Shown here piece by piece: positions 22,699-50,562 of a DNA stretch of 64,000 nt (its first letter is position 1; each line of letters opens with the position of its first letter). The stretch lies in contig JAJFFT010000006.1 in NCBI GenBank assembly GCA_021776525.1, forward strand, positions 620,001-684,000. Reading direction: 5' to 3'. The notes beneath the pieces were generated by a model. It had not been told where the DNA came from. It was given only the letters and a program-made list of their open reading frames with translations, and did not search any database. The translations under genes and the position numbers were made by a program. This stretch comes from Robiginitomaculum sp. Lineage in GTDB: Bacteria; Pseudomonadota; Alphaproteobacteria; Caulobacterales; Maricaulaceae.

Positions 22699-22701
22699 GT
22701 T

Positions 22702-23562: not shown

Positions 23563-23581
23563 GCATTACGTATATACCAAA

Positions 23582-23611
23582 GCGTCATACCGGCGCAGAC
23601 CGGTATGACGC
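23582..23611. repeat. 30-bp perfect palindromic repeat
   Basis: GCGTCATACCGG (23582-23593) and CCGGTATGACGC (23600-23611) are perfect inverted 12-mers around a 6-nt loop. It belongs to the same GTCAT-CCGG-TGAC class as the repeat at 22627. It sits between the start of the DUF4238 gene and the end of acs and could also act as a transcription barrier. Confidence 0.85.
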
Positions 23612-23653
23612 GGAGGCAAGAATCGGGATGGTGCTGGGACGAGTATCACACCC

Positions 23654-33764: not shown

Positions 33765-34544
33765 ATGACACGACTGACAGGCAAGACATGCCTTGTAACC
33801 GGTGCCGCGCGCGGTATTGGCGAGGCCATCGCATGCGCATTCATCAAAGAGGGTGCAAAGGTATATGTGACCGATATTGAAGTCGCCTCCGGCCAAAAAA
33901 CCGCGCAAAACCTCGGTGCGGCTTTTCTCAAACTGGATGTGGCCAGTGAAACCGACTGGGCACAAATCGCCAAAGCCGTTCCGAAACTGGATGTGCTGGT
34001 CAATAATGCCGGCATTACTGGCTTTGAAGACGGTGTTGTGGCGCATGATCCCGAACATGCGTCTTTGGCCGACTGGCGGGCTGTGCATGCGGTGAATACC
34101 GACGGCACGTTTTTGGGTTGCCGCTATGGCATTGCCGCCATGCGGGGTCGCGGGGCCGGTGCGATCATCAATATTTCCTCGCGCTCTGGCATGGTCGGTA
34201 TACCGGGGGCAGCGGCTTATGCTGCATCCAAGGCGGCGATCCGAAATCACAGCAAAACCGTGGCGCTTTATTGCGCACAAAACGGCCTCAATATCCGCTG
34301 TAACTCCATCCATCCGGCGGCAATCCTCACCCCGATGTGGGAGCCTATGCTGGGCGATGGCCCGGACCGTGCGGCCCGCATGAAAGCGTTTGTCGCGGAG
34401 ACACCAATGCAGCGTTTTGGCACGGCGTGCGAGGTGGCGGCACTGGCGGTTTTGCTGGCCTCGGACGAGGCGGCCTATATCACCGGGTCGGAGCTGACCA
34501 TTGATGGCGGCTTGCTTGCTGGATCGGCGGCGACACCCGGCTAA
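33765..34544 (+). CDS. Short-chain dehydrogenase/reductase
   Basis: A 259-residue classical SDR. The cofactor loop is [10 protein letters not shown] (residues 12-21), the structural NNAG motif is VNNAGITGF, the catalytic Ser is in INISSRSGM, and the Tyr-Lys pair is in [20 protein letters not shown]-like [14 protein letters not shown] ends the protein. Asp in VTDIEVASG after the second strand favours NAD over NADP. The substrate is unknown. The gene follows a leader region with a short peptide and ends just before a strong hairpin terminator. Confidence 0.93.
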
Positions 34545-34560
34545 GGCAAGGCGAAGGCAT

Positions 34561-34595
34561 AAAAAGCAAAGGGGCGTTAAGCCCTTTTGCTTTTT
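34561..34595 (+). terminator. Rho-independent terminator after the SDR gene
   Basis: AAAAAGCAAAGGGGC pairs with GCCCTTTTGCTTTTT (one G-T pair) around the loop GTTAA. The downstream T-tract ends the plus-strand transcript. The A-tract upstream gives a weak reverse terminator as well. Confidence 0.85.
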
Positions 34596-34662
34596 CCTGT
34601 TAGTGCCCAGTATTTGTGGTAGAACGCCCCGCATAAACATTAAAACCGTTATTGGGGCAATA

Positions 34663-35409
34663 ATGATCCTGCGCCGCGTCATCAAGCATTTTCGTAATCA
34701 GGAATGGACCGCGATTTTTCTTGATTTCCTGATCGTCGTGGTCGGGGTGTTTGTTGGGTTGCAGGTACAAAACTGGAATGAGCGGCGCGGTGATCGGGAG
34801 GAATATAACCGGGCACTTGACCGCCTTGATGTTGAGATCAACACCAATCTTGCCATGCTCGATACATTTGATCCCCAAGTTATAAAATCTCTGCAAATCG
34901 TCGGAAATGCCTTTGACGTCTTGCAATCTTGTATTGATAGCAAAGAAAACCGTAAAACGATTGAAGACAATTTTGATTATCTTCAATTCACCTTCGGGCT
35001 GCATTTACAGCGCAATGCATTGAAGGATCTGACCGAAAACCCAACGTTGCTAGCGCAACAATCAATCACGGAACGCAAACGTTTTGCTGAAATGCTATTT
35101 AATTTCGATTTTCTGCAACAAGAATCTGATTTTCTTGAAAATCAGCCACACAAAAATATTCTGGCTGATATCTCGATCATTAGTGTTGGAGCCATGAAAA
35201 AGTTTTCTGCCCAATATTACGGTTATGAGTATTCGAATTCAGGAAGACGAATGTTTTTAAATGTCCCGATTGATGAAGCTTGCCAAAACAATCAACTGAT
35301 CAAAAACTTTTATCTTTGGGAGGCGCTCCAGTCGGAGTTCCCAGATTTATCAAAAAAACTTCGCCACGAACTTGAAAAAACAAAAGTCCTCTTAGAGACC
35401 CGCAAATGA
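34663..35409 (+). CDS. Membrane-anchored protein of the DUF6090-like group
   Basis: I start this at the ATG at 34663 (MILRRVIKHFRNQEW), giving 248 residues. The longer frame back to 34501 covers the SDR terminator. One membrane helix, TAIFLDFLIVVVGVFVGLQV, is followed at once by QNWNERRGDREEYN and a long helical region. The N-terminal plan (basic residues, one helix, W-N-E-R) matches the DUF6090-like family, of unknown function. The C-terminal part is Lys/Phe/Asn-rich and lower in GC. It ends 10 nt before the helicase gene. Confidence 0.7.
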   Translation: MILRRVIKHFRNQEWTAIFLDFLIVVVGVFVGLQVQNWNERRGDREEYNRALDRLDVEINTNLAMLDTFDPQVIKSLQIVGNAFDVLQSCIDSKENRKTIEDNFDYLQFTFGLHLQRNALKDLTENPTLLAQQSITERKRFAEMLFNFDFLQQESDFLENQPHKNILADISIISVGAMKKFSAQYYGYEYSNSGRRMFLNVPIDEACQNNQLIKNFYLWEALQSEFPDLSKKLRHELEKTKVLLETRK

Positions 35410-37105: not shown

Positions 37106-37339
37106 CTAAATCAGCATTTCCAGCGGCAGCAAATCCGGATGGTGGGTTTCAGGCTTATTGCGTACCAAAAGCCGCAAAAGGGTGGGGATGAAAAACAGAA
37201 TCAACCCGATCCGAACAACCGATCCGATGCCGGTCACGCCGGTCAACGACAATGCGGGTGCAAGAAAAAACAACATTATCAATACGGCCAGCGTGATCAG
37301 AGCATTGCCGGTAAAGGGCGCATCGGCAAAGGCGTTCAA
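37106..37339 (-). CDS. Small two-helix membrane protein after the SEL1 operon
   Basis: A 77-residue frame with two hydrophobic spans, ALITLAVLIMLFFLAPALSL and VVRIGLILFFIPTLLRLLV, and a polar tail. It begins at a TTG at 37339, 22 nt past the stop of the SEL1-repeat gene at 37362, so it could be the seventh operon gene. The reading frame extends a little upstream, and the true start may differ. No family is recognised. Confidence 0.45.
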   Translation of the reverse strand: MNAFADAPFTGNALITLAVLIMLFFLAPALSLTGVTGIGSVVRIGLILFFIPTLLRLLVRNKPETHHPDLLPLEMLI

Positions 37340-37361
37340 GCGCTGGGTTATTGGGGCAAAT

Positions 37362-38786
37362 CTATTGCTCGCACGGTTTCAAGAAGAAATTGCGATCACT
37401 GTCATCACCGCCAGTCACAACAACTTTCAACACCTCTGGCTTAACCTGTTCCAGCATCAACCACCCATCGACCCAATTCGCCGGATGAACTTCGACATTG
37501 GTGTCATCAAGCGCGGTATAGGGCGCGGGCCCTTCTTCAAAGCCGTCAAACATAATGGTCGCGGCGGTATTGCCGATAATGGTGGCAATCAGCTCATTGC
37601 CTTTAAAGCTAAAAGTGGCATACCCACGGCCATCATGGTCGGCACAGGCATTGCCTAACAGGTCTGTGCTTTCCCGATAACCGCCTTTGCCATCCTCTTC
37701 GACCACGCCCCATTTGCCGACAATCCAATTTGGTTTTTGAGGGACCTTTAAGGCTTGCGGCGTTATGCCAGCCTCATTTTTTAACGCATTCAATTTTCCT
37801 AAGGCGTCGCTGCGAACATATTGCCAGTCATTATCAATTAAAATGGCATCATCGCCGACACGATCCATGATATCCTGATAGAGATTTGCGGCGCGTTGCC
37901 GATCCTGCGTCACACCAAGACCAACATCATAGGCTTTGGCCAGTTCCAGCTCTGCCTTGAAATGTCCCAATTTCATGGCGCGCATATAATACATGGCGGC
38001 CTGACCATGATCCGCATTATTCAAATAAGCGATGGCGGCGGCATATACGTTATCCATACCGCCTTGTGCAGCGGCCTTTAAGGCCCACTTAATATGTTGA
38101 TCTTTCTTCCACTGGCGTTGAGCGCTCTCATTTGCTGGCCAGTCTTTTAGGTTCTCTTTGGAGAAAATTTTTTGCGTCACTGCCGGACCACCATAGCGGA
38201 ACATAATGCCATAGGCGATTTGCGCCGGGGCATAGCCCTGATCGGCTGATAACTTTAGCCATTTAGCCTGATAGCGATAGCGCTCAAGTTTGTCTGAAAA
38301 ACCAGAACCCAACTTTCTCATTTCGAATTGGGCCATGGCATTGCCGTTTTGTGCCGCCTTTTCAATAAACTCACGCCCTTCCTTTATTTGCTCTTCATTG
38401 CCGGCGCGGCGAATTAATTTAGCGAACTCGATTTTGCCTTCAATCATATTGTTATCCAGATACGGTTGCAGGATTTTCTGGATCAGAGCGTAATTTTTAA
38501 CATCATAGGCATTTTTAATAGCCTTTTTATGCCAGGCCCAAGCTGTGGGCACGGATTGCGTTACACTATACCCACCAAGATAGAGATTACCGACCAGCCA
38601 TTGCGCCTCGATAAACCCGGGCTTGGCATAGCTGTTGGCGTGGAGTAGCAAGATTTTGTAGGCCTTGGCATAGTCCTGCGCCTGATAGGCCTTGAAGCCA
38701 TCCTCCATGGTCTCTTGCGCAAGGGCGGATGTTCCGGTCAGCGTTAATGCTAAGCCAATAACGAGTTTTATTAAAATTGACTTCAT
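37362..38786 (-). CDS. Exported SEL1-repeat protein with C-terminal beta domain
   Basis: A 474-residue protein with a signal peptide ending TGTSALAQE. The first part is a series of about seven helical SEL1-type repeats (for example AKAYKILLLHANSYAKPGF, AQIAYGIMFRYGGP, AELELAKAYDVGLGV). The last ~125 residues are non-repetitive and beta-rich, starting WIVGKWGVVEEDG and ending FFLKPCEQ, with two cysteines (NAC and KPC) that could bond in the periplasm. The start of that region resembles lipocalin-like domains. SEL1 repeats serve as protein-protein scaffolds. It is the sixth gene in the operon, 4 nt after the preceding stop. Confidence 0.85.
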   Translation of the reverse strand: MKSILIKLVIGLALTLTGTSALAQETMEDGFKAYQAQDYAKAYKILLLHANSYAKPGFIEAQWLVGNLYLGGYSVTQSVPTAWAWHKKAIKNAYDVKNYALIQKILQPYLDNNMIEGKIEFAKLIRRAGNEEQIKEGREFIEKAAQNGNAMAQFEMRKLGSGFSDKLERYRYQAKWLKLSADQGYAPAQIAYGIMFRYGGPAVTQKIFSKENLKDWPANESAQRQWKKDQHIKWALKAAAQGGMDNVYAAAIAYLNNADHGQAAMYYMRAMKLGHFKAELELAKAYDVGLGVTQDRQRAANLYQDIMDRVGDDAILIDNDWQYVRSDALGKLNALKNEAGITPQALKVPQKPNWIVGKWGVVEEDGKGGYRESTDLLGNACADHDGRGYATFSFKGNELIATIIGNTAATIMFDGFEEGPAPYTALDDTNVEVHPANWVDGWLMLEQVKPEVLKVVVTGGDDSDRNFFLKPCEQ

Positions 38787-38790
38787 GATC

Positions 38791-39486
38791 CTATTCCAGA
38801 CCTTTCAGACCTTGCACCGCATCGCGCCAGCCGGCATCAGCGGATTTTTGCATCCATGATTTTGCGGCCATCAAGTCCTCATCCACGTCCAGGCCGTATT
38901 GATAACGAATGGCCAGCTTGTACATGGCGGCGGGCTGGCCCTGATCAGCCGCCGTTTTTAGCCATTTCAGCGCGGCGCTCTGGTCGGTGCCATAAAGCTT
39001 GTCTGCGCCCAGATAGTCCTCGGCAATAAGAAAGGCGGCTTCGCCGGAAAGGGGATAGGTCAAGCCGCTTAAGGTCTGGTGCTGTTCGTCCATGGCGTTT
39101 TGCGCCGCATTTTCCAGCCAGTCTCGATATATGGCCTTGTCTGCATCAGAGGCGTGCCCTTCAGCACTTTTAATATGGGCCACATAGACTTGCGCATGGA
39201 CATTGCCGGCCTGCGCCAGCTTTTGCAAAGCTTCATCACTTTTTGCGCCAGACAACAGCGCCTTTTGAAAGGCGGCGCGTGGATCGCCCGCTGTTACGGC
39301 CTTTTGCAGTTTATCCTTGTCGGCTTTCAGCTTGCGCCGCACTTGCCCTTCAAGCTTTTTCATCGCGGCTTCATCGTTCTGCGCAGCTTTTTGCACGGTG
39401 TCTTGTGTGCTTTGCGTGTCTGCACTGCCACCACAGGCCGTGAGCACAAGTCCGGTTATCAGGGGCATCCATAAGTGTTTCATCAT
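38791..39486 (-). CDS. SEL1-repeat lipoprotein
   Basis: A 231-residue lipoprotein: the signal MKHLWMPLITGLVLTAC has a VLTAC lipobox. A long charged coiled-coil-like segment with many Lys/Asp (KLEGQVRRKLKADKDKLQKA) is followed by SEL1 repeats, the clearest being ALKWLKTAADQGQPAAMYKL and AKSWMQKSADAGWRDAVQGL. It is the fifth gene of the operon and the only one with a lipobox. It may anchor the system to a membrane. Confidence 0.82.
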   Translation of the reverse strand: MMKHLWMPLITGLVLTACGGSADTQSTQDTVQKAAQNDEAAMKKLEGQVRRKLKADKDKLQKAVTAGDPRAAFQKALLSGAKSDEALQKLAQAGNVHAQVYVAHIKSAEGHASDADKAIYRDWLENAAQNAMDEQHQTLSGLTYPLSGEAAFLIAEDYLGADKLYGTDQSAALKWLKTAADQGQPAAMYKLAIRYQYGLDVDEDLMAAKSWMQKSADAGWRDAVQGLKGLE

Positions 39487-39503
39487 TTGTCCTTTTCGCG
39501 CGG

Positions 39504-40316
39504 TTATTCTTCCAGCCAGTTATAGATAAAGTCCGGGATTTGGTCATGATTGTATTTGTCCAGGCGTTTCAGCCCGCCAAAATAAATACGTTTCACAGTG
39601 GTGAATTCGGCTTCTGTCAGGCCTTCATTTGCTACGCCATAACGCGCCGAAAGTTCTTCGCGCAAGGGTTTATAGGCATTGCTGATTTTAGATTTTTCCC
39701 AGCTTGGCTGAAATTTTATGGCGACGAATTCCTCAATACCATCGCGCTTTTTTGGATCTTGGTCATAGATCTGCACCAATTGCTTCATGGGCGGAGCGGC
39801 TAGCCCCCAAAAAGCATCTGATGGCTCGTTTCTGGGGGTTTTCTGGCATTGCGTATAAAACCGGGTGGTCTGTTCTCGGAAATCGAAAAATGGATTCGCC
39901 GGTTCCAGCTCTTTTGAAACCGATCTAAATAAAGCCATGGCACTTTTCACAACACCGCAAGCCTCATCGTTTTTAACCCCAAGGCGCACCGCATTCCATT
40001 TTGCCTGATGGTAAGCGGCACTGGCCGCATAAAGCATCCAATGGTCCAGCTCGTTGTTCTGGGACCATGAAATCGTCTTCCCGTCTTTTTTGGCCTGTTC
40101 GATTATTACGGCCAGGGGCTGGCCATGATTATAGGCGAATATTTTTGCCTCCCCGCAGGCATTTTCCAGCTCTGGGATCGGCGCGGAATTGATGGGGCCA
40201 ATACAGGTTTCATACGTGGAGGGGACTTCCAACTCGTCGGCAAAGGCTGTTGATGACAGGCATAGTCCAAGCGTGAGAATAAGAGAGGCGCGGGCGAATT
40301 TGTGAGGGGCAACCAT
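39504..40316 (-). CDS. Exported hypothetical protein within the SEL1 operon
   Basis: A 270-residue protein beginning at the ATG at 40316, 10 nt after the preceding SEL1 gene; a start 54 nt further upstream would overlap that gene. The signal peptide ends LSSTAFADEL. The mature protein has cysteine pairs (ETCIGP, ENACGE, DEACGV, YTQCQK) and no clear SEL1 repeats. I recognise no domain. It is the fourth gene of a six-gene block of exported proteins, so it probably works with the repeat proteins on either side. Confidence 0.7.
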   Translation of the reverse strand: MVAPHKFARASLILTLGLCLSSTAFADELEVPSTYETCIGPINSAPIPELENACGEAKIFAYNHGQPLAVIIEQAKKDGKTISWSQNNELDHWMLYAASAAYHQAKWNAVRLGVKNDEACGVVKSAMALFRSVSKELEPANPFFDFREQTTRFYTQCQKTPRNEPSDAFWGLAAPPMKQLVQIYDQDPKKRDGIEEFVAIKFQPSWEKSKISNAYKPLREELSARYGVANEGLTEAEFTTVKRIYFGGLKRLDKYNHDQIPDFIYNWLEE

Positions 40317-40326
40317 CGCCAGCCCG

Positions 40327-40968
40327 TTATTCCACGCCGAGTTGTTCAAGGGCGGCAATGGCATCGCCATAGCCCTGGTCGGCGGCTTTTTTAATCCAGC
40401 TTATGCCCGTATCCGTATCGGCTTCCCGGCCTTGCCCGTTATAATACATCACCCCCAAATTGTGTTGGGCGGCGGCATAGCCCTGATCGGCTGCGGCTGT
40501 GTACCATTTCAGGGCTTGGCTGTCGGACTGTTCTACCCCTTCACCTTTGTCATACATGAATGCGAGATTGTATTGCGCTTCCAACATGCCTTGCTCGGCG
40601 GCTTTTTCATACCAATAGGCGGCGGTTTTTGAGGACTTTTCAACGCCCTGAGCATTGTCATACATCAGGCCAAGATTGTATTGCGAATGCTTCATGCCCT
40701 GTTTGGCGGCGGCTGTGTACCATTTGAACGCCAGAGCATCAGATTGCTCTACGCCTGTGCCGTTATCATAAAATACGCCCAGATTATGCTGGGCCTCTAT
40801 ATTGCCTGCTTGGGCCGCCTTTTCGAACCATTTTGCCGCTTTGGCATAATCTTTGGCTTGGTAGGCCTTGATGGCGTTTTCATAGGGGCCAGCAAAGGCC
40901 GACACGGGTAACAGCCCACATAGTGCGGCAACCATCATGCCCATGACCCATTTGTGTATGATTTTCAT
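40327..40968 (-). CDS. Exported SEL1-repeat protein, 213 residues
   Basis: A signal peptide (ending PVSAFAGPYE) is followed by about five regular SEL1 repeats of 36 residues with the pattern AA..G...AQ.NLG..Y..G.GV, such as ALKWYTAAADQGYAAAQHNL. The repeats are nearly uninterrupted, making this a pure scaffold. The beginning GPYENAIKAYQAKDYAKA is shared with the 468-residue paralogue upstream (GPYEDAAKASRAKEYSKA), indicating duplication. It is the third gene of the operon. Confidence 0.9.
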   Translation of the reverse strand: MKIIHKWVMGMMVAALCGLLPVSAFAGPYENAIKAYQAKDYAKAAKWFEKAAQAGNIEAQHNLGVFYDNGTGVEQSDALAFKWYTAAAKQGMKHSQYNLGLMYDNAQGVEKSSKTAAYWYEKAAEQGMLEAQYNLAFMYDKGEGVEQSDSQALKWYTAAADQGYAAAQHNLGVMYYNGQGREADTDTGISWIKKAADQGYGDAIAALEQLGVE

Positions 40969-40986
40969 AGCTTTGTCCTACTCATT

Positions 40987-42393
40987 TTATCGACTCACAT
41001 TCGAGCCAAGGCAGCGCGTTGGCGGTTTGTAGCTATAAGTGTGATACTGGCCACTACGCCGGGCGGCTTCCAGATTTCCGCGATAGGCCAATTTATCACA
41101 CTCGCGCTTTTGGCGGGCCACTCTGGCTTTAATTGCGTCCAAATTGGCCACCATCTGATCCCAGCGGGCCTCTCTCATAGCTTTATCTTTATAGAATTTA
41201 AGCACGGATTTGGCATCAGAATTGCCCATGTCAGCGGCGACCTGATAGAGCTGTAAGGCTTTTTCCTTGTCCTGTTCCACACCGTGTCCATCATCATACA
41301 TGGTGGCAAACATATAGACGCCCTCGGGGTCGTCTTCATAAACAGCGCTGGTATACAGACGGTAGGCCTCGGTATAATTGCGGGGCATGCCAAGCCCGTA
41401 ATTATACATATCGCCCAAAGCCACCATGGCCTCGGAATTCTCCCGACTAACGGCCAGCTCATACCAGGCTTTTGCCTGTTTATAGTCCTGTACGTTTTTG
41501 GCGCCTTTATAGACATGGCCCAGATTGACCATGGCGGCGACATCGCCAGCCAAGGCGCGTTTTTTCCATACTGTGATGGCGCCCTTATAGTCTTTTTTCA
41601 AGTAAGCGATATAAGCCTCATCGCCCAGCTTATCATTGGTAATGCCTAACGCTTCCAGTTTCTCTTTGGCATAGTCACTGCCCATGGCGGCGGCTTGTTT
41701 ATAAAGCTCAATACCTTGTTTTTTATCGGTATTTACACCCTTGCCATAATAGTACATTTCGCCCAGAAAGGCGCGGCCCTTGGCATCGCCATTATCGGCG
41801 GCATCGGCATAAAGCTTGGCGGCTTTACGATAATCCTTTTTTGTCCCTTCTCCGTTTTCATACATGATGCCCAGGGATGTCCGACCTGAATTATTGCCGT
41901 AATCAGCCGATTTTTGGTACCATTTCAGCGCCTTGGCATAGGACCTTTTGACCCCATCAGCATTTTTATAGGCATAGCCCACATCATAGGCGGCTTTCTT
42001 GTGGCCTTGCTTGGCGGCGGCCAGATACCAGGTAAATGCCGCTTTATGGTCCTTAGGTGTTCCATCCCCGAAATAGTATAATTTGGCCAATTCATACTGG
42101 CTGTCCACATCACCATTACGGGCGGAGCGATCATACCAGTAAAATGCTTTTTCGTAGGATTTCTCTACGCCCTGCCCCTTGCGATAAAACGTGCCCATAT
42201 ACCATTGCGCATCATCATTATCAGCTTCGGCCAAGGGCCGGAAAAGGGCAACGGCCTTGCTATACTCTTTGGCACGAGAGGCCTTTGCGGCATCTTCATA
42301 GGGGCCGGATAAAGCCGCCGTTGGTATAAGGGCGCACAGCATGAATATTAGCGCCCCTGCGCCCCATTTTCTTACCTGATATGTGATTGTCAT
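40987..42393 (-). CDS. Exported SEL1-repeat protein, 468 residues
   Basis: The start is the ATG at 42393, which overlaps the TGA of the upstream gene (ATGA) with GGAG 6 nt before it. A signal peptide is followed by about ten SEL1 repeats (for example KAFYWYDRSARNGDVDSQYEL, AIELYKQAAAMGSDYAKEK-type units) and a C-terminal non-repeat tail (KRECDKLAYRG, ending near PPTRCLGS) with two cysteines. The start of the mature protein resembles that of the 213-residue gene. It is the second gene of the operon. Confidence 0.87.
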   Translation of the reverse strand: MTITYQVRKWGAGALIFMLCALIPTAALSGPYEDAAKASRAKEYSKAVALFRPLAEADNDDAQWYMGTFYRKGQGVEKSYEKAFYWYDRSARNGDVDSQYELAKLYYFGDGTPKDHKAAFTWYLAAAKQGHKKAAYDVGYAYKNADGVKRSYAKALKWYQKSADYGNNSGRTSLGIMYENGEGTKKDYRKAAKLYADAADNGDAKGRAFLGEMYYYGKGVNTDKKQGIELYKQAAAMGSDYAKEKLEALGITNDKLGDEAYIAYLKKDYKGAITVWKKRALAGDVAAMVNLGHVYKGAKNVQDYKQAKAWYELAVSRENSEAMVALGDMYNYGLGMPRNYTEAYRLYTSAVYEDDPEGVYMFATMYDDGHGVEQDKEKALQLYQVAADMGNSDAKSVLKFYKDKAMREARWDQMVANLDAIKARVARQKRECDKLAYRGNLEAARRSGQYHTYSYKPPTRCLGSNVSR

Positions 42394-44291
42394 GGACATC
42401 TCCAAGTGCCACTGGTGTCGTGATAGCCCCAGGCGTTTTTGCCGGGGTTGGCCCGACACGCCTTGCCGCGTGCTTGGTTGATGGCCTTAAAACCCCAAGG
42501 GTCATCGCCGCGCTCTTTTGCTCTACGCGCACGCATTGCCGCCATTGAGCGCTTTTTCTGGGCCTTGTAATCAGCCTGTGATTTGCCGCTGGCGATATCG
42601 GCGAGGGCCTGTTCTGCGTCCGCATAGTCATGGGTATACGCTTTTTCGTACCAGATTTTGGCTTTTTCAAACTTGCCGTTCTTCTCATAGATAACACCGC
42701 GCCAGTATTCGGCTTCGGGATAGCCACTTTCCGACGCGTGTTTGAACCATTTATCTCGTTCATTGGCATTGGCGGTGACGCTTTCGCCATATTCATACAT
42801 CTGCCCCAGCAAGGTTTGCGCGATAGGTAGACCGCCAGTGGCCGCTTTTTTCAGCCAATCAAAACCCGTGTTTTCATTTTTTGAAACGCCGGTGCCGCCT
42901 CTATAGAGAAGGCTAAGGGTGTACATGCCCGAAAGGTCACCGCCCTCCGCGCCTTTTTGCACCCACTGCGCCCCAGTTTCATAGTTTTGCGCCACACCGC
43001 GCCCGGCAAGATACATTTTGCCAAGCCGGACCGCGCCCAGTGCAGAACCCAGATCGGCGGCACGACGATAGAGTTTGGCTGCACGTGTGCTATCTTGAGC
43101 AACACCGCGCCCTTCATCGGCTAGCTGGCCCAGGCTGACCATGGCATCGGGATAATCCTGATCAACGGCCATCTGGTAAAGCTTGGCCGCAACCTGGTCG
43201 TTTTGCGGAACGCCCAGGCCTTTCTCGACCATATCGCCAAGCCCGAACTGGGCGGCGGCCAGGCCCGCCTCAACGGCTTTTTCATAAAGGCCAACGGCCT
43301 TTTTATAATTAGTTTGCACACTGCGACCATTGGCATACATGAACCCAAGATTGGCTGACCCTGTTGGCTCATCCTGATCTGCGGCCTTTTGAAACAGCGC
43401 AAAGGCTTTTGCATCGTCCTGTTTCACGCCCTTGCCCTGTAAATAGGCAAGGCCCAGCGCACTTTGCGCTTTGGGGTGGTTTTGCGTGGCGGCCTTTTCA
43501 AACCATTGGGCGGCGGCTTTGTCGCTTTGCCGCCCGCCCTGACCCAGTTGCGCCATGGTGCCAACGGTAAACTGAGACTTGGCATCACCGGCCTTGGCCT
43601 CTTTTTCAAGTGTTTTTCGCGCCTTTTTGAAATCGCCCTTGGCGTAGGCCGTCATGCCTTTCAGGTATCCGGCACTGCCGGCGCCAGAGGCCAATTCATC
43701 ATTGACCGCAGCCAGCATTTTTGCCGCTTCGGCATTACCTTGTGCTACGGCCATTTGCAGGTATTTCTGGGCCTTTTTCATGTCTTTCAGCACGCCATTG
43801 CCCATGCCGTATTGCACGCCGATATAAAGCTGGCCGTAAGCAGAGCCGCCATCAGCTGCCAACTTGTTCCATTTGGCGGCGCGTGCCGGGTCTTTGGGTA
43901 TGCCGGATGTCCCCAGATACAAGAGCATGCCCAGCGATTGCTGCGCATCAACATAACCGTTTTCACCCGCTTTTTCCCACCAAAGGGCCGCCTTTTGGGC
44001 ATCCTGTTTGAAATAAATACCCTGGCTGTACATATAACCTAGGGTAAACTGTGCCCGTGCATGGCCGTTTTGGGCCAGTGGTAGCCAGATATCGACGGCA
44101 CGTTTGTCATTGCCGCTGTTTTTAGCGCGCAAACCGTCCTGAAAGGTGCCAATTTCGACCGCTTTATCGCGTTCGGCGCGCTCGGCATCGGTCAGTGTGA
44201 TGCTTGGTTCTTGCGCCCATGCCGGGAAAGCGGCTGGGCTGGTCAAAGCACACAGTGCAACACTGAGACTCAATATGGTTTTGCGGCCCAT
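42390..44291 (-). CDS. Exported SEL1-repeat protein, 633 residues, first operon gene
   Basis: A large exported repeat protein. The signal peptide ends PAAFPAWAQE. From residue ~60 to ~570 there are about 14 SEL1 repeats, for example AQSALGLAYLQGKGVKQDDA and AAQFGLGDMVEKGLGVPQN. The last ~60 residues are basic and then form a cysteine-containing tail (ARGKACRANPGKNAW, GTWRCP). AGGAG lies 6 nt before the ATG. It is the first gene of the operon. The upstream 140 bp separates it from a LuxR-hydrolase fusion on the same strand. Confidence 0.88.
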   Translation of the reverse strand: MGRKTILSLSVALCALTSPAAFPAWAQEPSITLTDAERAERDKAVEIGTFQDGLRAKNSGNDKRAVDIWLPLAQNGHARAQFTLGYMYSQGIYFKQDAQKAALWWEKAGENGYVDAQQSLGMLLYLGTSGIPKDPARAAKWNKLAADGGSAYGQLYIGVQYGMGNGVLKDMKKAQKYLQMAVAQGNAEAAKMLAAVNDELASGAGSAGYLKGMTAYAKGDFKKARKTLEKEAKAGDAKSQFTVGTMAQLGQGGRQSDKAAAQWFEKAATQNHPKAQSALGLAYLQGKGVKQDDAKAFALFQKAADQDEPTGSANLGFMYANGRSVQTNYKKAVGLYEKAVEAGLAAAQFGLGDMVEKGLGVPQNDQVAAKLYQMAVDQDYPDAMVSLGQLADEGRGVAQDSTRAAKLYRRAADLGSALGAVRLGKMYLAGRGVAQNYETGAQWVQKGAEGGDLSGMYTLSLLYRGGTGVSKNENTGFDWLKKAATGGLPIAQTLLGQMYEYGESVTANANERDKWFKHASESGYPEAEYWRGVIYEKNGKFEKAKIWYEKAYTHDYADAEQALADIASGKSQADYKAQKKRSMAAMRARRAKERGDDPWGFKAINQARGKACRANPGKNAWGYHDTSGTWRCP

Positions 44292-44433
44292 GTTTGGCTC
44301 CTATTTCTTTTTTTGAACAGCACAAAGACCAGCACGCATATGTCCCCGCGTGCGGTCCCCCCATCCTGATTATGTCTATAATGTAAAGCGCCGAACCTGC
44401 TTGTGCTTCACCCCTGGGGGGTAAAGTTCGGGC

Positions 44434-46221
44434 CTAGTCTCTGCGCGCCAGTGCGCACAGGGCTTCGATGATACGTGCGGGATCCTGATAAAGGATATTA
44501 TACCCGGCATCGTCCAATATTTCTATTGTGTGATTGGTGTTACTGCGCACATAGTCGGCAACGAATTTCGCCCCCATCAAGTGGCAATGCCGTCCGTGGA
44601 CCCAAGCTTGCGGGCAATCAACGGCCTTTAAATCATCCTGCCAGTCGGCCATTTGTGAGCGCCCGTCATGGACAAAGGCCTCTGCGCCTTGTTGCACAAG
44701 ATGGAACATACCTTCAGATAATTTTGGCTGTATTTCCGGATCATGGATACAGGGGTGATCGCATTCTGAGGGTGCGTAATGATCTTCGAAGAAGGCCTGC
44801 ATGCCTTTCTTGCGGTAGGTTTTCATGCCCATGGTGGCAATGAGTTTGACCACCGATGGCGCATGGCGCGAGGCGACAGACATCATGCGCGCCTGTTTGG
44901 TCATAAAGCGGATGTGTTCGGCGTTCAAAGGAATGCCGGCACCGATCAGCATCATGCCGTATACTTGTTGTTCAATCTGTTTGGCCAGTCGAAAGGCGTG
45001 GCTGGCACCGCCATGATGTGCCGTGATGATGATATTGGCGCCAAGGTCCAGATGATTGACCAAAGTCACAGCATCGGCACAGGTTGTGGTGTCGTAATCC
45101 TTTTTTGGGGCGGGCTGGCTGGTATAACCGAAATGTGGCCGAGACGGGGCGATGACGCGAAAGCCGTTGGTCAGAAACCCGCGGATCATATTATCCAGAA
45201 AAAACGGACCTTGGAAAAACCCATGGATAAACAGCACGGGCTGTCCCTTAGGATCGCCATATTCGTAATAGGCCAGTGTCCGCCCATCAGGAACCGACAG
45301 CATGTGCAGGTTTTTGCGCGGCGTAATCCAGTTGTCGTGACTTGTCTGGTCCAGTGTCAGGGTTTCTGACAAGCCGATGACATAGGCAATACTGGTACAC
45401 AGATGCGCCAGTTCGGTCATCTTGGCACAGCCGGCTTTGCGCAATATGGCCTTGGCCTGGGTTTTGATTGTATCAACAGAACGGTGTCGGGCCTGGGCTA
45501 TTTCTTTATGGTTCTGCCCGTTTAAAATGCCTTGCAAAACCAGACCCTCGCTATCGCTGAGCGCCAGGGCATTTTGCAGGCTTTTGAAAATCGCCGGTGA
45601 CCAGTCAAAATATGACAGGCTGATGTGCAGGCCGGTTTTTTCCTGACCAACAGGGACGGCGCGGCAAAACCCAAACGCGTTTTGCGGGGTGTCTGTTTCT
45701 ATTTGCAGATAGACAATCCGCTCAAGGTTTTGGACGCCTGCCGATATTTCCTTGAGGATTTCACGCAGTGCCGTGAGGCTGTCAAAGCTCAGCGGTAGAT
45801 TGTCCAAAAACGCGTTTGGCATGCCGTCGAGCAGGTTTTGGGCCTTGGTATTGGCGGTCAAAACGCGCCCTTCGCTGGATAAAATCAACTGCGCATGGTG
45901 CTCGATAGACAGGCCCAGCTTGTCCTGGCCTGCCTGACGGGCAATCAGGTCTTCCAGACGGTTGATATGGATTTCCAGATGCGGATCCAGGTCCGCAAAA
46001 AACGGCAGGTTTTTTGTGACGACTGCATTTTTCTGGTCTTCAAACAGATAGTTGTTGGCGCTTTCCAGTAAAGCATCCAGCCGATCAACGTCTTCGGATA
46101 CGTGATAGGCCTGATCCAGAAGGTCAAGCATTCGACTTTGTGTTTCGGTCCCCAAAACACGTACTCCCATTCGTCGCACTGTCCCCTTACGCAGCTTAGG
46201 GTTGGCGGTGCACATTTTCAA
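44434..46221 (-). CDS. LuxR-type regulator fused to a degenerate alpha/beta-hydrolase fold
   Basis: A 595-residue chain in three parts. Residues ~10-215 are PAS-like. Residues ~218-280 (LSDSEGLVLQGILNGQNHKE, SVDTIKTQAKAILRKAG) are a LuxR helix-turn-helix. Residues ~300-595 have the alpha/beta-hydrolase fold, with HGFFQGPF in the oxyanion position. The nucleophile elbow, normally G-x-S-x-G, is AHHGG (401-405), with His403 in place of Ser. Near the expected acid there is HGRHCHLMG instead of G-x-x-D, and the final His position reads AGYNILY. So all three triad residues seem lost, and a ligand-sensing role is likely. The start is uncertain (46221 or 46170). It is co-directional with the sulfotransferase gene, 40 nt away. 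Confidence 0.8.
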   Translation of the reverse strand: MKMCTANPKLRKGTVRRMGVRVLGTETQSRMLDLLDQAYHVSEDVDRLDALLESANNYLFEDQKNAVVTKNLPFFADLDPHLEIHINRLEDLIARQAGQDKLGLSIEHHAQLILSSEGRVLTANTKAQNLLDGMPNAFLDNLPLSFDSLTALREILKEISAGVQNLERIVYLQIETDTPQNAFGFCRAVPVGQEKTGLHISLSYFDWSPAIFKSLQNALALSDSEGLVLQGILNGQNHKEIAQARHRSVDTIKTQAKAILRKAGCAKMTELAHLCTSIAYVIGLSETLTLDQTSHDNWITPRKNLHMLSVPDGRTLAYYEYGDPKGQPVLFIHGFFQGPFFLDNMIRGFLTNGFRVIAPSRPHFGYTSQPAPKKDYDTTTCADAVTLVNHLDLGANIIITAHHGGASHAFRLAKQIEQQVYGMMLIGAGIPLNAEHIRFMTKQARMMSVASRHAPSVVKLIATMGMKTYRKKGMQAFFEDHYAPSECDHPCIHDPEIQPKLSEGMFHLVQQGAEAFVHDGRSQMADWQDDLKAVDCPQAWVHGRHCHLMGAKFVADYVRSNTNHTIEILDDAGYNILYQDPARIIEALCALARRD

Positions 46222-46261: not shown

Positions 46262-47836
46262 TTACTTGGCCAAAGGTCCAAGGGCCTGTTTCAACGTATC
46301 AAGGCGATCGCCATATTTCTTCCAGCGGTCGATCGACCCCGCATAAAGCGGTTGGCGCACCTGAACCGAACTGGCCGTGGAAACCGGGGCGGCGTTCTCA
46401 TGAAAACGCAAACAGGCCTCATCCCAGCTTAAATCACAAAATTCCAGCAGGTTTCGGGTCTGGTTTTCCTGGTCATGGACGATGTTTTCATAGTGAATTT
46501 CCATAAACCGGTCGGCGGGCAGCACGACCCGCCAATGGGCCATTAAGGTGTCGAACTGGCGGTAAAACTGGGCCGTATCATCGAGGTCATAAGCGTAATT
46601 ATAATAAGAGTATTGCACCGTGAATAATTGTCGATAATTGCTGAGGCAGCTGTCCATGGCGCCCCGGCGCAGGGCAATCAGTCGTGCATTGGGCAAAGCG
46701 CGATGGATCAAACCGGCATAAAAGAAATTCAACGGCATTTTATCGGTCATGCGGGGCGCACCGCGGGCCAGCTCACGGGTATTTTTAACATAATCTGCAC
46801 CGACCTGATCCAAGGGCAGGGTTGCTGCATTGATCAGGGTTTGGGGGTCCAAAACCATGTTCGATGGTGTTTGCGCGGCGTCTTTGATCAGGCCAGCAAA
46901 GGCGTTGAGTTCACCGGCGGCGGTCACGTCAGGATGCGAGGACAAGATGCGGTCCACGAGTGTGGTCCCTGTTCGGGGCAGGCCAAAAACAAAAATAGGC
47001 GCGGCATCTGTGGCGGGGTCTGATTTGACGGGCGGAGTCTGATGTTTTTTAGCCGCAGCAAACAGCGGAGCATAAGCATCAGCGGTGTTGCCCAATTCTT
47101 GCCGCTTGGCGGCTTTGGCTTTGTGTAACCAGACAAGGCTTTGCGCAAAATTTCCTGTATCTTCCAATGACTTGGCGATGGCGTGGCCAAAATGCAGGGC
47201 AGCATCGGCATTGTCTTTGCTTTTCTCAAAAAGCCCGGTCAGCGTTTCAATATGGTTGTCGTCAATGCTTTGCCGCCCCAGCGATATCAGTGAAGACCAG
47301 GCCCTGTGGTGTTTTGGGTCGCGTTTCAAGGTTTCGCGATAGGCCGCTTTGGCGCGTATGAAGCGGCCTAAAAACTGTTGTGATGCAGCCAGATTGTAAT
47401 GAAAATTCGCAGGTTTCGGGTCGAGAGAAACGGCCCTTTCAAAAAAGGGTACGGCCTTTTCGTGATAACCTGTTCGGCTGTACACAACACCAATCGTGTC
47501 GGCGATTATGGCATCATCAATAGTGAGGCCGGCGGCCCGATCAGCAGTTTTTTTAGCCTGGTTTTGCAAACCCAGTACGGTCAGGGAGCGGGCATGATAT
47601 GCCAGATATTCGACACGGTCCGGGGCCAGCTCGACTGCCCTGGAAAACAGCTCCTGTGCCTTGGTATGATTGCCATGTTCGGCGGTCAGGAAGCCAAGAA
47701 GGCAATAGGGAACAGGGTCGTTAACGTCCGCATGGATCATGGACAGAGCGTCCGCATGTACGGCTTCAAAACGTTTTTCGGCGAGGCGCTTAATCCCGAT
47801 TTTCAGACGGTTCGTCGAGTGATTCTTGATTGACAT
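46262..47836 (-). CDS. TPR-containing sulfotransferase
   Basis: A 524-residue protein. Residues ~40-230 hold TPR repeats (AQELFSRAVELAPDRVEYLA, AVPFFERAVSLDPKPANFHY). The C-terminal half is a sulfotransferase: FVFGLPRTGTTLVDRIL is the 5'-phosphosulfate loop and RRGAMDSCLSNYRQLF the 3'-phosphate region for PAPS. Such proteins are often found beside TonB-dependent receptors in alphaproteobacteria. The acceptor is unknown. It is 40 nt from the LuxR-hydrolase gene on the same strand and divergent from the TonB-dependent receptor gene. Confidence 0.92.
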   Translation of the reverse strand: MSIKNHSTNRLKIGIKRLAEKRFEAVHADALSMIHADVNDPVPYCLLGFLTAEHGNHTKAQELFSRAVELAPDRVEYLAYHARSLTVLGLQNQAKKTADRAAGLTIDDAIIADTIGVVYSRTGYHEKAVPFFERAVSLDPKPANFHYNLAASQQFLGRFIRAKAAYRETLKRDPKHHRAWSSLISLGRQSIDDNHIETLTGLFEKSKDNADAALHFGHAIAKSLEDTGNFAQSLVWLHKAKAAKRQELGNTADAYAPLFAAAKKHQTPPVKSDPATDAAPIFVFGLPRTGTTLVDRILSSHPDVTAAGELNAFAGLIKDAAQTPSNMVLDPQTLINAATLPLDQVGADYVKNTRELARGAPRMTDKMPLNFFYAGLIHRALPNARLIALRRGAMDSCLSNYRQLFTVQYSYYNYAYDLDDTAQFYRQFDTLMAHWRVVLPADRFMEIHYENIVHDQENQTRNLLEFCDLSWDEACLRFHENAAPVSTASSVQVRQPLYAGSIDRWKKYGDRLDTLKQALGPLAK

Positions 47837-47926: not shown

Positions 47927-48099
47927 TTGCGAAAAGGCATCACTGGTACAATACTTGGGGTCAAACGCGAAAATATTTGGTGAAACGCCAAATTTTAGAT
48001 CATAAGTTACTCCATATGCCTTTTAGAGGCATAAAATTCGGATGACGGCCCAAGGTGTTTGGTACCCGACCGACAAATAACAAAGGGGGCCGTTCTATT
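47927..48099 (+). promoter_or_regulatory. Candidate promoter and two-hairpin 5' leader of the TonB-dependent receptor gene
   Basis: TTGCGA (47927-47932) and AATACT (47950-47955), 17 bp apart, form a weak -35/-10 pair. Downstream are two inverted repeats with 7-nt loops: ATTTGG-N7-CCAAAT (47975-47993) and TATGCC-N7-GGCATA (48015-48033). Both would be in the 5' leader, about 107 and 67 nt before the ATG. The purine-rich AAAGGGGG upstream of the start is the likely ribosome binding site. The stretch 47837-47926 holds no gene. Confidence 0.4.
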
Positions 48100-50562
48100 A
48101 TGAAACGTCATCTTACTCTCAAAAATTCTATGAAGCTGTCTGCCAGCGCGCTTGTGCTGGGGACCATGTCCATGGGTATGGCTAATGTGGCTTATGCCCA
48201 GAACGCCAGCGAAAACGTCAAGGAAGATGCAATCGTGGTTACCGCGACCCGTCGCGAAGGCACGGTACAGGATGTGCCGATCAATATTGCCGCCGTAGGC
48301 GAAGCACAGATTGAGGAACAGGGCTTTACTGACATTTCTGAAGTTCTATCCTACGTGCCGGGCATCAACGTGATTGATCAGGGTGGTCGGAACGGGAACA
48401 ATATTATTGTTCGCGGTTTGAATGCCAATCCAATCGGTCAGGGCTCTGGGAATGACGTCAGCGGCACGGTGGCCACCTATCTTGGTGAAGTGCCCATGGC
48501 ACTGGATTTTAAACTGAATGACATGCAACGGGTCGAGGTTCTGCTTGGGCCACAAGGCACGCTGTATGGCGCCGGAACGTTGAGTGGTGCCATCCGGTAT
48601 ATTCCAAACAAGCCTGATTTTAGCGGTCAGATGTTTGAAGTGCGCGCTGATGCGTTCACCACTAAAAAGAGCAGCGGTGTCAGCACAGACGTCGGCATGA
48701 CCTTCAATTTGCCAGTTTCTGATACTTTGGCGATCCGCGGTTCTGCTGATTATCGCAATGAAGTTGGTTTTATTGATTATCCGTTTGTTGTTCAACAGAT
48801 CGGTGTTTCTGAACCAGATCCAGACTTTACAGACGCAAATGCCCGCGCCGCAAATTTCCGCCCGGCAAAAGACGTTAACGGTCAGGAAGTGGCTTCTGGC
48901 CGGTTGGCCGTTCGCTGGCAGCCCGTCGATGCACTTGATGCAACGCTGACCTATTATTTCCAGAATGAAAACAATGAAGGCCGTTCGGTATCCAGTTTTC
49001 GCGGGGAAGTCCCAACAGGGCGTTATGAATCCGCCAGCCGTGTACTTGAGCCAAACCGTGAAAAGAACGAGCTTCTGGCCCTTGAAATCACCGCCGACCT
49101 TGGCTTTGCTGAATTGACATCTGCCACGGGTCTTGGCCAGTTTAAAGAAAATGGCCAACGTGACCAGACTGACCTTTTGATCAGCCTGGAATATTCTTAT
49201 GAAACCTTCCCAACGTTTACGGCCTTCACGTTTGAAGACCAGAAGGACAACTTCTTTAATCAGGAAGTACGTTTGGTTTCCTCTGGCGACAAGCGTTACA
49301 ACTGGATTATCGGCGGTTTTTACAACAAGGCAGAGTCCGTATCCTCATCATCTGAGTTTACACCGGGTTATGCCCAGTTTGCCGGGTTTAACCGCCCTGA
49401 TAACCTCGAGTATTTTTCAGCAGGTGCCAGCCGACTGGTCGAAAAAGCCGTATTTGGTGAAGTTGGGTTTGACATCACCGACAAATGGCAGATCACCGCA
49501 GGTGGCCGCTATTACAAATACAATCTACAGGTTTCCAGTTCTGTTGACTTCCCATTGTTTGACCCCGGCTTTATTGCTGCCGGTCTGAAGGAAGTAAAAG
49601 GGCGTCCGTTTGACCCGAATTTGGGCCAGCGTGATAATGGGACGTTGTTCAAGATCAACACCTCATACCATGTTACAGACGACGCATTGCTCTATGCCAC
49701 GGTCAGCGAAGGCTTCCGTATCGGCGGCAGTAATGGCGGCGGCCCTTGCCCTGTCTTTGACCCCAATGCCTCACAAGGCAATTGTAATCTGGCACCCGGT
49801 CAGCAATTTGGCCCTGGTCCGAACGATTTCGCCCAATTTGATGAGCGCTCGTTTGGTCCTGACGGTACTCGCAATTATGAATTGGGTGCCAAGACGGAAT
49901 GGCTTGATGGGGCATTGGTCCTGAACGGTGCTTTGTTCTACGTCAAATGGAGCCAGCCGCAATTGTCATCGGCGACGGTGAATGCATCTGTGCCGATCAC
50001 CATTAACGCCAATGGCGCCAAGACCCAGGGCTTCGAGTTCAATGGTTCCTGGCAGGCCACCGAACAATTCCGTCTTCGCGGCAGTTACAGCTATACCAAG
50101 AGCCAGCTGACCTCTGATGTTCCATCCCTGATCCGGACCTTTACGCCTCCTGGTTTTTCCACGGCGTTTGAAGATGGCCTGGATGGTGATCGACTGCCGG
50201 GTTCTCCGAAGACACAATTCTCGTTCTTTGGGACCTATGACATGCCGATGGATAACGGGAATGAGTTGCATTTCAATGCCGGGTATTCCTGGCAGGGTAA
50301 TGTGCTGTCTAGAACAGGTGCACGTGGTAATAGCCTGACATTGCCAAGCTTTGGTGTTGCCAATGCATCAATTGTTTATGATGCGGATGATTGGTCTATG
50401 ACTCTTTATGCCAACAATCTGTTTGATAAATTCGCAGAAACCGGCGTTCAATCAACACGACTGTCTAACCAGACCGTTCTTGGCTCTTCCGTACGCAGCT
50501 ATTTGACTAATGTGATCACACCACGATCCATTGGTCTTCGCGCACGATACAAATTTCAATAA
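48100..50562 (+). CDS. TonB-dependent outer-membrane receptor
   Basis: An 820-residue receptor starting at the ATG at 48100. The signal peptide ends VAYAQNAS. A TonB-box-like segment (EDAIVVTATR) is followed by the plug: EVLSYVPGINVID, NIIVRGLNANPIG, QRVEVLLGPQGTLYGAGTLSG and IRYIPNKP. The rest is beta-barrel with many YxxN-type strands, ending in ARYKFQ with a terminal aromatic. It resembles the sphingomonad-type receptors of the IPR000531/TonB-dep_Rec family; the imported ligand is unknown. It is divergent from the sulfotransferase gene and followed by a terminator. Confidence 0.95.
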   Translation: MKRHLTLKNSMKLSASALVLGTMSMGMANVAYAQNASENVKEDAIVVTATRREGTVQDVPINIAAVGEAQIEEQGFTDISEVLSYVPGINVIDQGGRNGNNIIVRGLNANPIGQGSGNDVSGTVATYLGEVPMALDFKLNDMQRVEVLLGPQGTLYGAGTLSGAIRYIPNKPDFSGQMFEVRADAFTTKKSSGVSTDVGMTFNLPVSDTLAIRGSADYRNEVGFIDYPFVVQQIGVSEPDPDFTDANARAANFRPAKDVNGQEVASGRLAVRWQPVDALDATLTYYFQNENNEGRSVSSFRGEVPTGRYESASRVLEPNREKNELLALEITADLGFAELTSATGLGQFKENGQRDQTDLLISLEYSYETFPTFTAFTFEDQKDNFFNQEVRLVSSGDKRYNWIIGGFYNKAESVSSSSEFTPGYAQFAGFNRPDNLEYFSAGASRLVEKAVFGEVGFDITDKWQITAGGRYYKYNLQVSSSVDFPLFDPGFIAAGLKEVKGRPFDPNLGQRDNGTLFKINTSYHVTDDALLYATVSEGFRIGGSNGGGPCPVFDPNASQGNCNLAPGQQFGPGPNDFAQFDERSFGPDGTRNYELGAKTEWLDGALVLNGALFYVKWSQPQLSSATVNASVPITINANGAKTQGFEFNGSWQATEQFRLRGSYSYTKSQLTSDVPSLIRTFTPPGFSTAFEDGLDGDRLPGSPKTQFSFFGTYDMPMDNGNELHFNAGYSWQGNVLSRTGARGNSLTLPSFGVANASIVYDADDWSMTLYANNLFDKFAETGVQSTRLSNQTVLGSSVRSYLTNVITPRSIGLRARYKFQ

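Follow-up and report, generated by a model that had tools for sequence, protein, structure and literature searches.

A variable array of tandem exported Sel1-like repeat genes in a Robiginitomaculum-like marine genus

Tandem genes for exported Sel1-like repeat (SLR) proteins have been described as strain-variable in Haemophilus influenzae (PMC4792463), and three adjacent SLR genes of Pseudomonas aeruginosa are described as immunity genes of a type VI secretion system (T6SS; PMC9022076, PMC13133936). The gene run analyzed here lies in a 64,000-nucleotide stretch of a Robiginitomaculum sp. draft genome (the window), and its closest precedents are slrV/msf in Haemophilus and PA5086-5088, the Pseudomonas genes for SLR immunity proteins; given these precedents, the original prediction that the run belonged to no recognizable described system was too strong. 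The papers cited name tandem exported SLR genes of pathogens, while the array here belongs to a marine lineage known in this analysis only from draft genomes.

The run comprises six minus-strand genes, whose sizes were all confirmed as predicted, together with the short gaps of 4 to 18 nt or ATGA overlap between them (in order, -4, 18, 10, 17, and 4 nt):

Gene A, 44291-42390, minus strand: 633-aa exported SLR protein with 10 Sel1 repeats and a non-Sel1 C-terminal tail
Gene B, 42393-40987, minus strand: 468-aa exported SLR protein with 7-8 Sel1 repeats and an ATGA overlap with A
Gene C, 40968-40327, minus strand: 213-aa exported SLR protein with 5 Sel1 repeats
Gene D, 40316-39504, minus strand: 270-aa exported protein of no known family
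Gene E, 39486-38791, minus strand: 231-aa predicted lipoprotein (LTAC lipobox) with 1-2 Sel1 repeats
Gene F, 38786-37362, minus strand: 474-aa exported protein, an SLR-like solenoid followed by a predicted all-beta C-terminal domain (about 350-474)

Export signals, judged by eye, are present in all six proteins, in agreement with the predicted signal peptide or lipobox on each. Sel1 repeats had been assigned to five of them; this held for A, B, C, and E, which exceed the curated Pfam cut-off for PF08238 (E-values of 1e-69, 5e-60, 8e-46, and 8e-9, respectively), but F fell just short (1.6e-6; 28.8 bits against a cut-off of 30.7), and D showed no Sel1 repeat in the Pfam search and no Pfam or NCBIfam match. 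A two-helix membrane protein of 77 aa (37339-37106, TTG start) had been put forward as a possible seventh member, but we dropped it because it has no relative in the 26 neighbor loci fetched, its only match covering 28 residues at an E-value of 0.4. Other Sel1 stretches of the genome are scattered over seven places (E up to 0.001), whereas five Sel1 genes lie inside 7 kb at the array and their order recurs in other species, so that the cluster is not sensibly explained by chance. Given their same-strand tandem arrangement and conserved order, A to F form one operon-like array.

We compared the array across 18 draft genomes of the Robiginitomaculum-like genus, the source genome (G000) included. 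The gene order, whose conservation the original prediction had proposed as a check, is not confined to the source genome, as versions of the array are present in 6 of the 18, but the set of members varies:

G000: A-B-C-D-E-F
G002: C-D-E-x-F
G005: B-C-E-F
G007: A-B-C
G010: A-x-B-C'
G013: x-x-x-B-x-E-x (divergent)

The body of A is absent from G005, A and B from G002, and D, E, and F from G007, and the genes flanking the array differ between species. A full orthologue of A occurs in G007 (77% identity), with its 3' part at a contig end in G010 and remnants of its start and signal peptide in G005 and G002. Orthologues of B were found in G005, G007, G010, and G013 (68-79%); outside the genus (43 relatives), none of the matches listed at E up to 1e-20 exceeds 39%. 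C is represented in G002, G005, and G007 (72-81%) and at about 50% in G010, E in G002 (81%), G005 (73%), and G013 (44%), and F in full in G002 (75%) and G005 (80%). G011 has a partial relative of F that covers the N-terminal part, and G015 one that covers the C-terminal part (38%); a search of 385 class genomes at E ≤ 0.001 detected the C-terminal domain in no other genome. D is present in only two genomes, its sole orthologue among 60 relatives being that of G002 (90%), and a search of 384 other class genomes returned only two marginal matches (E-values of 9e-4 and 3e-3). The dN/dS ratio lies between 0.09 and 0.25 in 17 of 18 orthologue pairs, the remaining pair (E against G013) being saturated, and by this measure the intact orthologues are under purifying selection.

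These patterns bear on the prediction that the block encodes a multi-protein periplasmic assembly, with A to F as obligate subunits of one envelope machine. The operon-like layout, the conserved order, the export signals throughout, and the single lipoprotein anchor would all suit such a machine, as would the SLR fold, which usually mediates protein-protein contacts. Obligate subunits are not expected to be lost as they are here, however: A, A and B together, D, or D-E-F is gone in sister species while the others persist under purifying selection, and the low synonymous divergence of D described below points to piecemeal exchange. The assembly is therefore unsupported, and we consider it quite unlikely; variable content combined with purifying selection on the surviving genes argues instead for separately acting exported SLR proteins, and the set resembles a toolkit of changeable content more than it does the parts of one machine. 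It is very improbable, on the other hand, that the repeat genes duplicated in tandem in a selfish or near-neutral way and do nothing jointly. SLR genes are easy to duplicate, those of slrV included, and A, B, and C are paralogues with mutual identities of 34-44%, but purifying selection largely refutes this explanation, and order and orthology are held over several species, with the upstream element and leader kept.

Between G000 and G002, the pS of D is 0.23 (0.16-0.29), compared with 0.55-0.67 for four chromosomal genes, which suggests that D was exchanged between species later than the neighboring chromosome; toward the same genome, F is at baseline (0.57), and C and E (0.44 and 0.45) are intermediate. 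E may perhaps have been exchanged recently as well, its pS toward G005 being 0.34 (0.26-0.43) against 0.44-0.69 for six chromosomal genes. None of the values for B, C, and F toward G005 (0.49, 0.44, and 0.45) is below that of the lowest chromosomal gene (0.44), and we dropped a recent exchange of F in this direction since that gene (34501-35409) is equally low. The signal of exchange is uneven across the array genes.

Several routes of mobility were also considered. A relocation of gene H (below) together with the array was weakened by the presence of the G005 PIF1 helicase on the contig of the array, about 19 kb away, so that the sites in G000 and G005 may represent a single rearranged region. 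We rejected a phage or plasmid origin because neither D nor F has a confirmed relative on viral contigs, D has no relative on plasmids, and F matched five plasmid records at 26-29% identity, which reflects generic SLR similarity. Among repeats of at least 16 nt flanking the array unit nothing resembles a target-site duplication, and no recombinase was recognized among the flanking genes scanned.

Three features mark the upstream end of the array:

Gene H, 44434..46221, minus strand: 595-aa fusion of a LuxR-type HTH and an alpha/beta-hydrolase (Pfam GerE and Abhydrolase_1), directly upstream of the array; candidate regulator
Inverted-repeat element, 44405..44423, minus strand: 19 nt, TACCC-N5-GGGTGAAGC, about 110 nt upstream of A
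Leader of A, 44208..44291, minus strand: start and signal-peptide codons of A (28 codons), kept in mini-ORFs of relatives without the body of A

A single copy of the 19-nt element lies upstream of the array in each of G000, G002, G005, and G007, but not at the G013 array; no match occurs in 13 of the other genomes, and a reversed-pattern control matched none of the 18. The one extra match, in G011, sits inside a 212-aa ORF, presumably TetR-like, and was taken as chance. In an alignment of the upstream regions, 15 of the 20 columns at the element are invariant, compared with 23 of the 115 other ungapped columns and 7 in the next best separate 20-column window, and the hairpin into which the element folds has an energy of -10.7 to -13.1 kcal/mol (z of -1.8 to -3.2). 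Promoter-like and terminator-like sites were within 1 standard deviation of shuffled sequences.

Orthologues of H (63-71% identity) occur in 6 of the 18 genomes, the source counted, and all four genomes with the element at the array carry one. H stands directly upstream of the array in G000, G002, and G005; it is unlinked in G007, G012 and G004 have it without an array, and the stretches fetched around its relatives outside the genus (30-36% identity; four loci in three genomes) hold no Sel1 gene, all of which led us to reject H as an obligate partner of the array. We infer that this LuxR-hydrolase acts on the conserved element.

Four arrays have in common the element and the codons for the start and signal peptide of A. 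In the two of them that lack the body of the gene, these codons persist in a mini-ORF: in G005 it has 36 codons, the start region of A being fused in frame to the last 8 codons of the gene, and in G002 it has 29 codons and an ATGA overlap into C. The arrangement suggests that the genes after A are translationally coupled to its start, such that deletions survive if they keep that start and end at the next one. These observations come from draft assemblies, with the element at four loci, the mini-ORFs at two, and the link to H at three. A more speculative possibility, to which we assign a low probability, is that the element and the A start and signal codons constitute a fixed leader cassette feeding exchangeable exported SLR genes, members being inserted, deleted, and swapped behind a translated mini-ORF whose stop codon touches or overlaps the start of the following gene, with the LuxR-hydrolase as a sensor that switches on the whole set. 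On this view, the array would be an arsenal of periplasmic binders that is built in modules, exchanged horizontally, and equipped with a landing pad of its own.

Our preferred explanation, held tentatively and at somewhat less than even probability, is that the array encodes a changeable set of paralogous exported SLR binders plus accessory exported genes behind a shared upstream region, the binders acting as independent catchers that probably neutralize or shield. Expression would begin from a shared start, the inverted-repeat element followed by the beginning of A; each protein alone would be a catcher in the periplasm or tethered to the outer membrane, and its groove would hold a ligand conserved inside its own orthologue group. 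The most likely task would be to bind incoming proteins and neutralize or shield against them, by analogy with the tandem SLR immunity proteins of PldB but with no cognate toxin alongside. In favor of such a groove, 32 of 139 non-consensus positions vary between orthologues in the first repeat helix (the groove side) compared with 134 of 315 in the second (p = 6e-5). A groove that is conserved would be expected for a conserved ligand more than for an arms race, and in this respect counts against a neutralizing role.

Toxin-neutralizing or shielding binders are only weakly favored. No toxin gene was recognized by Pfam in or beside the array among the flanking genes of the window. T6SS was the secretion system examined, with the sheath family PF05943 as its sole marker; the family is in none of the 18 genomes, 11 of which are at least 90% complete, and an Escherichia coli control was positive. 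This makes self-immunity to a T6SS unlikely and leaves only orphan immunity. In sequence and Foldseek searches, generic SLR proteins outrank PA5086 (6lch), and PADLOC gave one weak match and nothing meaningful. A Klebsiella Sel1 protein, described as toxic when expressed in E. coli, has been proposed as an effector, the opposite of an immunity role (PMC12469244). A literature search joining "Sel1-like repeat" and "polyimmunity" found no match, and none of the matches listed for the taxon names of this lineage involves Sel1.

Alternatively, the proteins could act at the surface or in the periplasm in encounters with a eukaryotic host or grazer, as several SLR proteins with dosage-additive effects on uptake or survival (compare msf/slrV, LpnE, DipA, or Hcp proteins). 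The anatomy matches slrV locus 1, described as tandem exported SLR genes, 0-4 per strain, with remnants and interspersed non-SLR genes (PMC4792463), and the best structural and sequence matches of F include c5321 (4bwr) and Legionella LceB/LpnE. The low-confidence model of F (mean pLDDT 60, with the C-terminal domain mostly below 50) predicts a helical solenoid from about 27 to 340, followed by strands from about 355 to 470, and its best Foldseek matches are Sel1 proteins with TM-scores of only about 0.2. However, these matches are driven by generic SLR similarity and this marine genus has no host link here, so we regard such a role as unlikely.

We judge it similarly improbable that the proteins are adaptors of an envelope or resistance pathway, controlling exopolysaccharide export, a sensor kinase, flagellar or stalk assembly, or metal tolerance. 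NCBIfam models for MerG, MotX, AlgK, and ExoR do match A, B, and C, as expected for many SLR proteins, but scores are far under the curated cut-offs (A scores highest, with MerG 132 of 350 bits, MotX 78 of 330, AlgK 77 of 700, and ExoR 60 of 450), the flanking genes scanned include no recognized polysaccharide, kinase, flagellar, or mercury gene, and occurrence as an array in only 6 of the 18 genus genomes is unlike a core envelope function.

The array represents a variable design with a readable evolutionary record, consisting of a shared start, deletions that spare the leader ORF, and a hint that genes were exchanged one by one. It opens two questions to testing: do SLR arrays serve as repertoires of independent binders, and does translational coupling to a leader peptide allow an operon to lose its first gene while the others stay expressed?

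Like PA5086-PA5088 (Tli5b1-3), which are described as conferring immunity to the P. aeruginosa T6SS effector PldB and as a multi-copy "stockpiling" of immunity (PMC13133936, PMC9022076, PMC12771364), the array consists of adjacent SLR genes, three in that case. There, the toxin gene adjoins in an organism with a T6SS; here, no Tle5/PldB effector or other toxin is recognized, the sheath family was found in none of the 18 genomes, and the sequence similarity is generic. The layout is also that of homogeneous polyimmunity loci (Zhang et al. 2012, PMC3482391), with same-strand tandem paralogues, short gaps, no recognized toxin genes between them (D and the x genes having no assigned function), and content that varies among close relatives; unlike in those loci, however, the passages of that study that treat Sel1 place it as a repeat of toxin proteins and not as an immunity family. 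The sel1-bearing dif modules of Acinetobacter plasmids (PMC6449649) offer a precedent for SLR genes moving as cassettes, although the array here is chromosomal and multi-gene. The likeness to slrV locus 1/msf of nontypeable H. influenzae, which is one of locus description and not of Haemophilus sequence, lies in signal-peptide SLR genes in tandem at one main locus, in variable number and with remnants where lost; slrV locus 1 is further described as having interspersed unrelated ORFs, one coding for a two-transmembrane protein, and its members mostly share a two-cysteine C-terminus (PMC4792463). The array varies in the same manner, with different sets in its six genomes and remnants of A in two, between species here and between strains in Haemophilus. 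Unlike slrV, several of its members are larger (up to 10 repeats), and it has a conserved upstream element and a retained A leader and adjoins a LuxR-hydrolase gene in three of the six genomes.

Our comparative sequence analysis leads us to read this array of exported Sel1-like repeat (SLR) genes as encoding separately acting binders that would share one start rather than form one machine, because related genomes lack individual members or blocks of the array while the genes they retain stay under purifying selection; for the same reason, the periplasmic multi-protein assembly of the original prediction was not borne out. Its account of the gene layout held, with six minus-strand genes, A to F in transcription order, separated by a 4-nt overlap and then gaps of 18, 10, 17, and 4 nt, and with export signals that were assessed by eye and predicted in all six proteins (five signal peptides and one lipobox). 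The attribution of SEL1 repeats to five of the proteins stands for A, B, C, and E, with F just under the Pfam cut-off. Among 26 fetched loci there was no relative of a proposed seventh gene (77 aa; best match E 0.4), which was therefore left out of the array.

Genes of the array and the gene upstream of it
44291 to 37362, minus strand: array of six genes, A to F
A, minus strand: 633 aa, Pfam Sel1 above curated cut-off
B, minus strand: 468 aa, Pfam Sel1 above curated cut-off
C, minus strand: 213 aa, Pfam Sel1 above curated cut-off
D, minus strand: 270 aa, no Pfam Sel1
E, minus strand: 231 aa, Pfam Sel1 above curated cut-off, LTAC lipobox
F, minus strand: 474 aa, Pfam Sel1 at 28.8 bits (cut-off 30.7)
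H, ending 142 nt upstream of A: fusion of LuxR-type HTH and alpha/beta hydrolase (Pfam)

An AlphaFold model of F built from two sequences (mean pLDDT 60) has a helical solenoid at ~27-340 and, at the C-terminus, an all-beta domain that is poorly modelled; in Foldseek the model matched the Sel1 proteins 4bwr, 8sxq, and 6deh best, at TM-scores of only ~0.2. Elsewhere in the same genome, a probably broken Sel1 gene (G000:C1:281920-282135; L068, ~3921-4136) has two repeats, a TAG within one of the two matches, and an ORF of only 69 aa.

The gene order is not confined to the window genome (G000): versions of the array occur in at least 6 of the 18 genomes of the genus, and shared genes keep the same order and strand in all genomes compared. 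Since the other assemblies are mostly fragmented drafts, further arrays could be hidden. The genus is called Robiginitomaculum-like here because its one named relative, the MAG NORP54, shares the array sequence of G005.

Array versions by genome (x, other array gene; C', a ~50% relative of C)
G000: A-B-C-D-E-F
G002: C-D-E-x-F
G005: B-C-E-F (same array sequence in Robiginitomaculum sp. MAG NORP54)
G007: A-B-C
G010: A(end)-x-B-C', on a short contig
G013: x-x-x-B-x-E-x, more divergent

Orthologues of B are found at 68 to 79% in four other genomes of the genus; outside it, none of the matches listed for 43 relatives is above 39%. Of 61 genomes searched, 2 have D, the window genome being one of them, and 384 other genomes of the class gave two marginal matches. 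The C-terminal domain of F was found in no other genome among 385 sampled from the class and, within the genus, in G002, G005, and, at 38%, G015. The array as such thus looks genus-restricted, assembled from a widespread repeat. Other proteins at these loci include a 398-aa exported-looking protein with no Pfam match between E and F of G002 (L024:10798-11994) and, in the array of G013, a protein of 209 aa (L027:2581-3210) that is weakly D-like (36% across 50 aa; E ~5e-4 when four proteins were compared). Two tandem SLR genes in G014 (L058:8079-9253) have no obvious N-terminal signal peptide, and their products, unlike those of the window array, are probably cytoplasmic.

Values of dN/dS were 0.09 to 0.25 in 17 of 18 window-gene/orthologue pairs (A to F and H), the remaining pair, E versus G013, being saturated. 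In TPR-like solenoids the groove is lined by the first helix of each repeat. Among non-consensus positions of A, B, and C (commonest residue under 60%), 32 of 139 vary among orthologues in the first helix versus 134 of 315 in the second (pooled p = 6e-5; single families p = 0.06, 0.05, and 0.003), a grouping picked after the per-position values were seen. Because the groove side varies less, the ligand may be specific to, and conserved within, each orthologue group.

Evidence for a shared start comes from four genomes, in which we aligned the regions before A (G000 and G007), B (G005), and C (G002). Outside one 20-column block they have largely diverged, with 23 of 115 ungapped columns invariant; that block, an inverted repeat, has 15 invariant columns, the most of any window, and the next separate window has 7. 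Each of the four genomes has a single copy of the pattern TACCC-N5-GGGTGAAGC, at the array, with one extra match within an ORF of G011 and none in the other 13 genomes of the genus; a reversed control had no match in any of the 18. The element is absent from the G013 array, and the G010 contig does not reach the upstream end of its array. The start of A follows the element in the aligned regions, and two genomes retain it as a mini-ORF. In G005, which lacks the body of A, the signal-peptide codons are fused in frame to the last eight codons of A, giving a 36-codon ORF whose stop is 2 nt short of the B ATG; in G002, a 29-codon ORF, mostly the start of A, has an ATGA overlap with the start of C. 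That two distinct deletions both keep a leader ORF up to the next start codon is suggestive, though only that, of selection for translational coupling.

Orthologues of H (63 to 71%) are present in 6 of the 18 genomes, the window genome included. H adjoins the array in G000, G002, and G005 and is unlinked in G007, which has the element without adjoining H, so the element belongs with the array and not with the H end. H also occurs without an array in G012 and in G004, which has a single SLR gene nearby. All four genomes with the element at the array carry H (4/4 versus 2/14, p ~0.005; with the G011 match, 4/5 versus 2/13, p ~0.02; hand calculations ignoring kinship), making H a reasonable, if unproven, candidate regulator.

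Judged against chromosomal genes, D looks recently exchanged in one genome pair: between G000 and G002 its synonymous difference (pS) is 0.23 (95% bootstrap, 0.16 to 0.29), compared with 0.55 to 0.67 for four chromosomal genes, 0.72 for H, and 0.44, 0.45, and 0.57 for C, E, and F. E has perhaps been exchanged as well, with a pS of 0.34 (0.26 to 0.43) between G000 and G005, where six chromosomal genes give 0.44 to 0.69, H 0.66, and B, C, and F 0.49, 0.44, and 0.45. Values for the other array genes are intermediate or inseparable from the lowest chromosomal ones. A scan of flanking genes recognised no recombinase, and the unit is not bordered by repeats of ≥16 nt.

At least two array sites are indicated. 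In G002 and G007 the array lies near the same epimerase-like gene, a neighbourhood present in G012 with H and without the array (neighbours paired by eye from N-terminal sequences). In the window, H and the array lie between DUF3088/PIF1 helicase genes and a sulfotransferase/TonB pair; the distance from PIF1 to an M13 peptidase gene is 16.7 kb, versus ~4 kb in G017, which has neither array nor H there. The pair, a TPR-sulfotransferase gene (46262-47836, minus strand) divergent from a TonB-dependent receptor gene (48055-50562, plus strand), is kept in G007, where its piece of contig has neither H nor the array. The G005 array adjoins an SLR/epimerase pair found elsewhere in G000 and G002; PIF1 is ~19 kb away on the same contig, so a single rearranged region may underlie the sites in G000 and G005. 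Relocation of the array between sites is a suggestion rather than a result. Elsewhere in the window, a DUF4238 gene (22702-23562, minus strand) lies inside a low-GC stretch (22001-24000; GC 0.447 versus ~0.55 either side), possibly a recent acquisition.

As to function, we place first, with low confidence, binders that would neutralise or shield; factors that face a grazer or host, and adaptors of the envelope, rank below them. No toxin gene was recognised at the array, and a T6SS sheath was found in none of the 18 genomes. A Klebsiella Sel1 protein proved toxic in E. coli and is a proposed effector (PMC12469244). In layout the array matches the polyimmunity loci described by Zhang et al. (PMC3482391), but in passages of that work Sel1 appears as a toxin repeat only. 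The original prediction recognised no described system, but two precedents fit, as far as the excerpted reports describe them. PA5086-5088 are three SLR proteins, encoded side by side, that serve as immunity proteins to PldB (PMC13133936, PMC9022076, PMC12771364), and the slrV/msf locus of H. influenzae holds zero to four tandem signal-peptide SLR genes per strain, with remnants where genes were lost and unrelated ORFs interspersed (PMC4792463).
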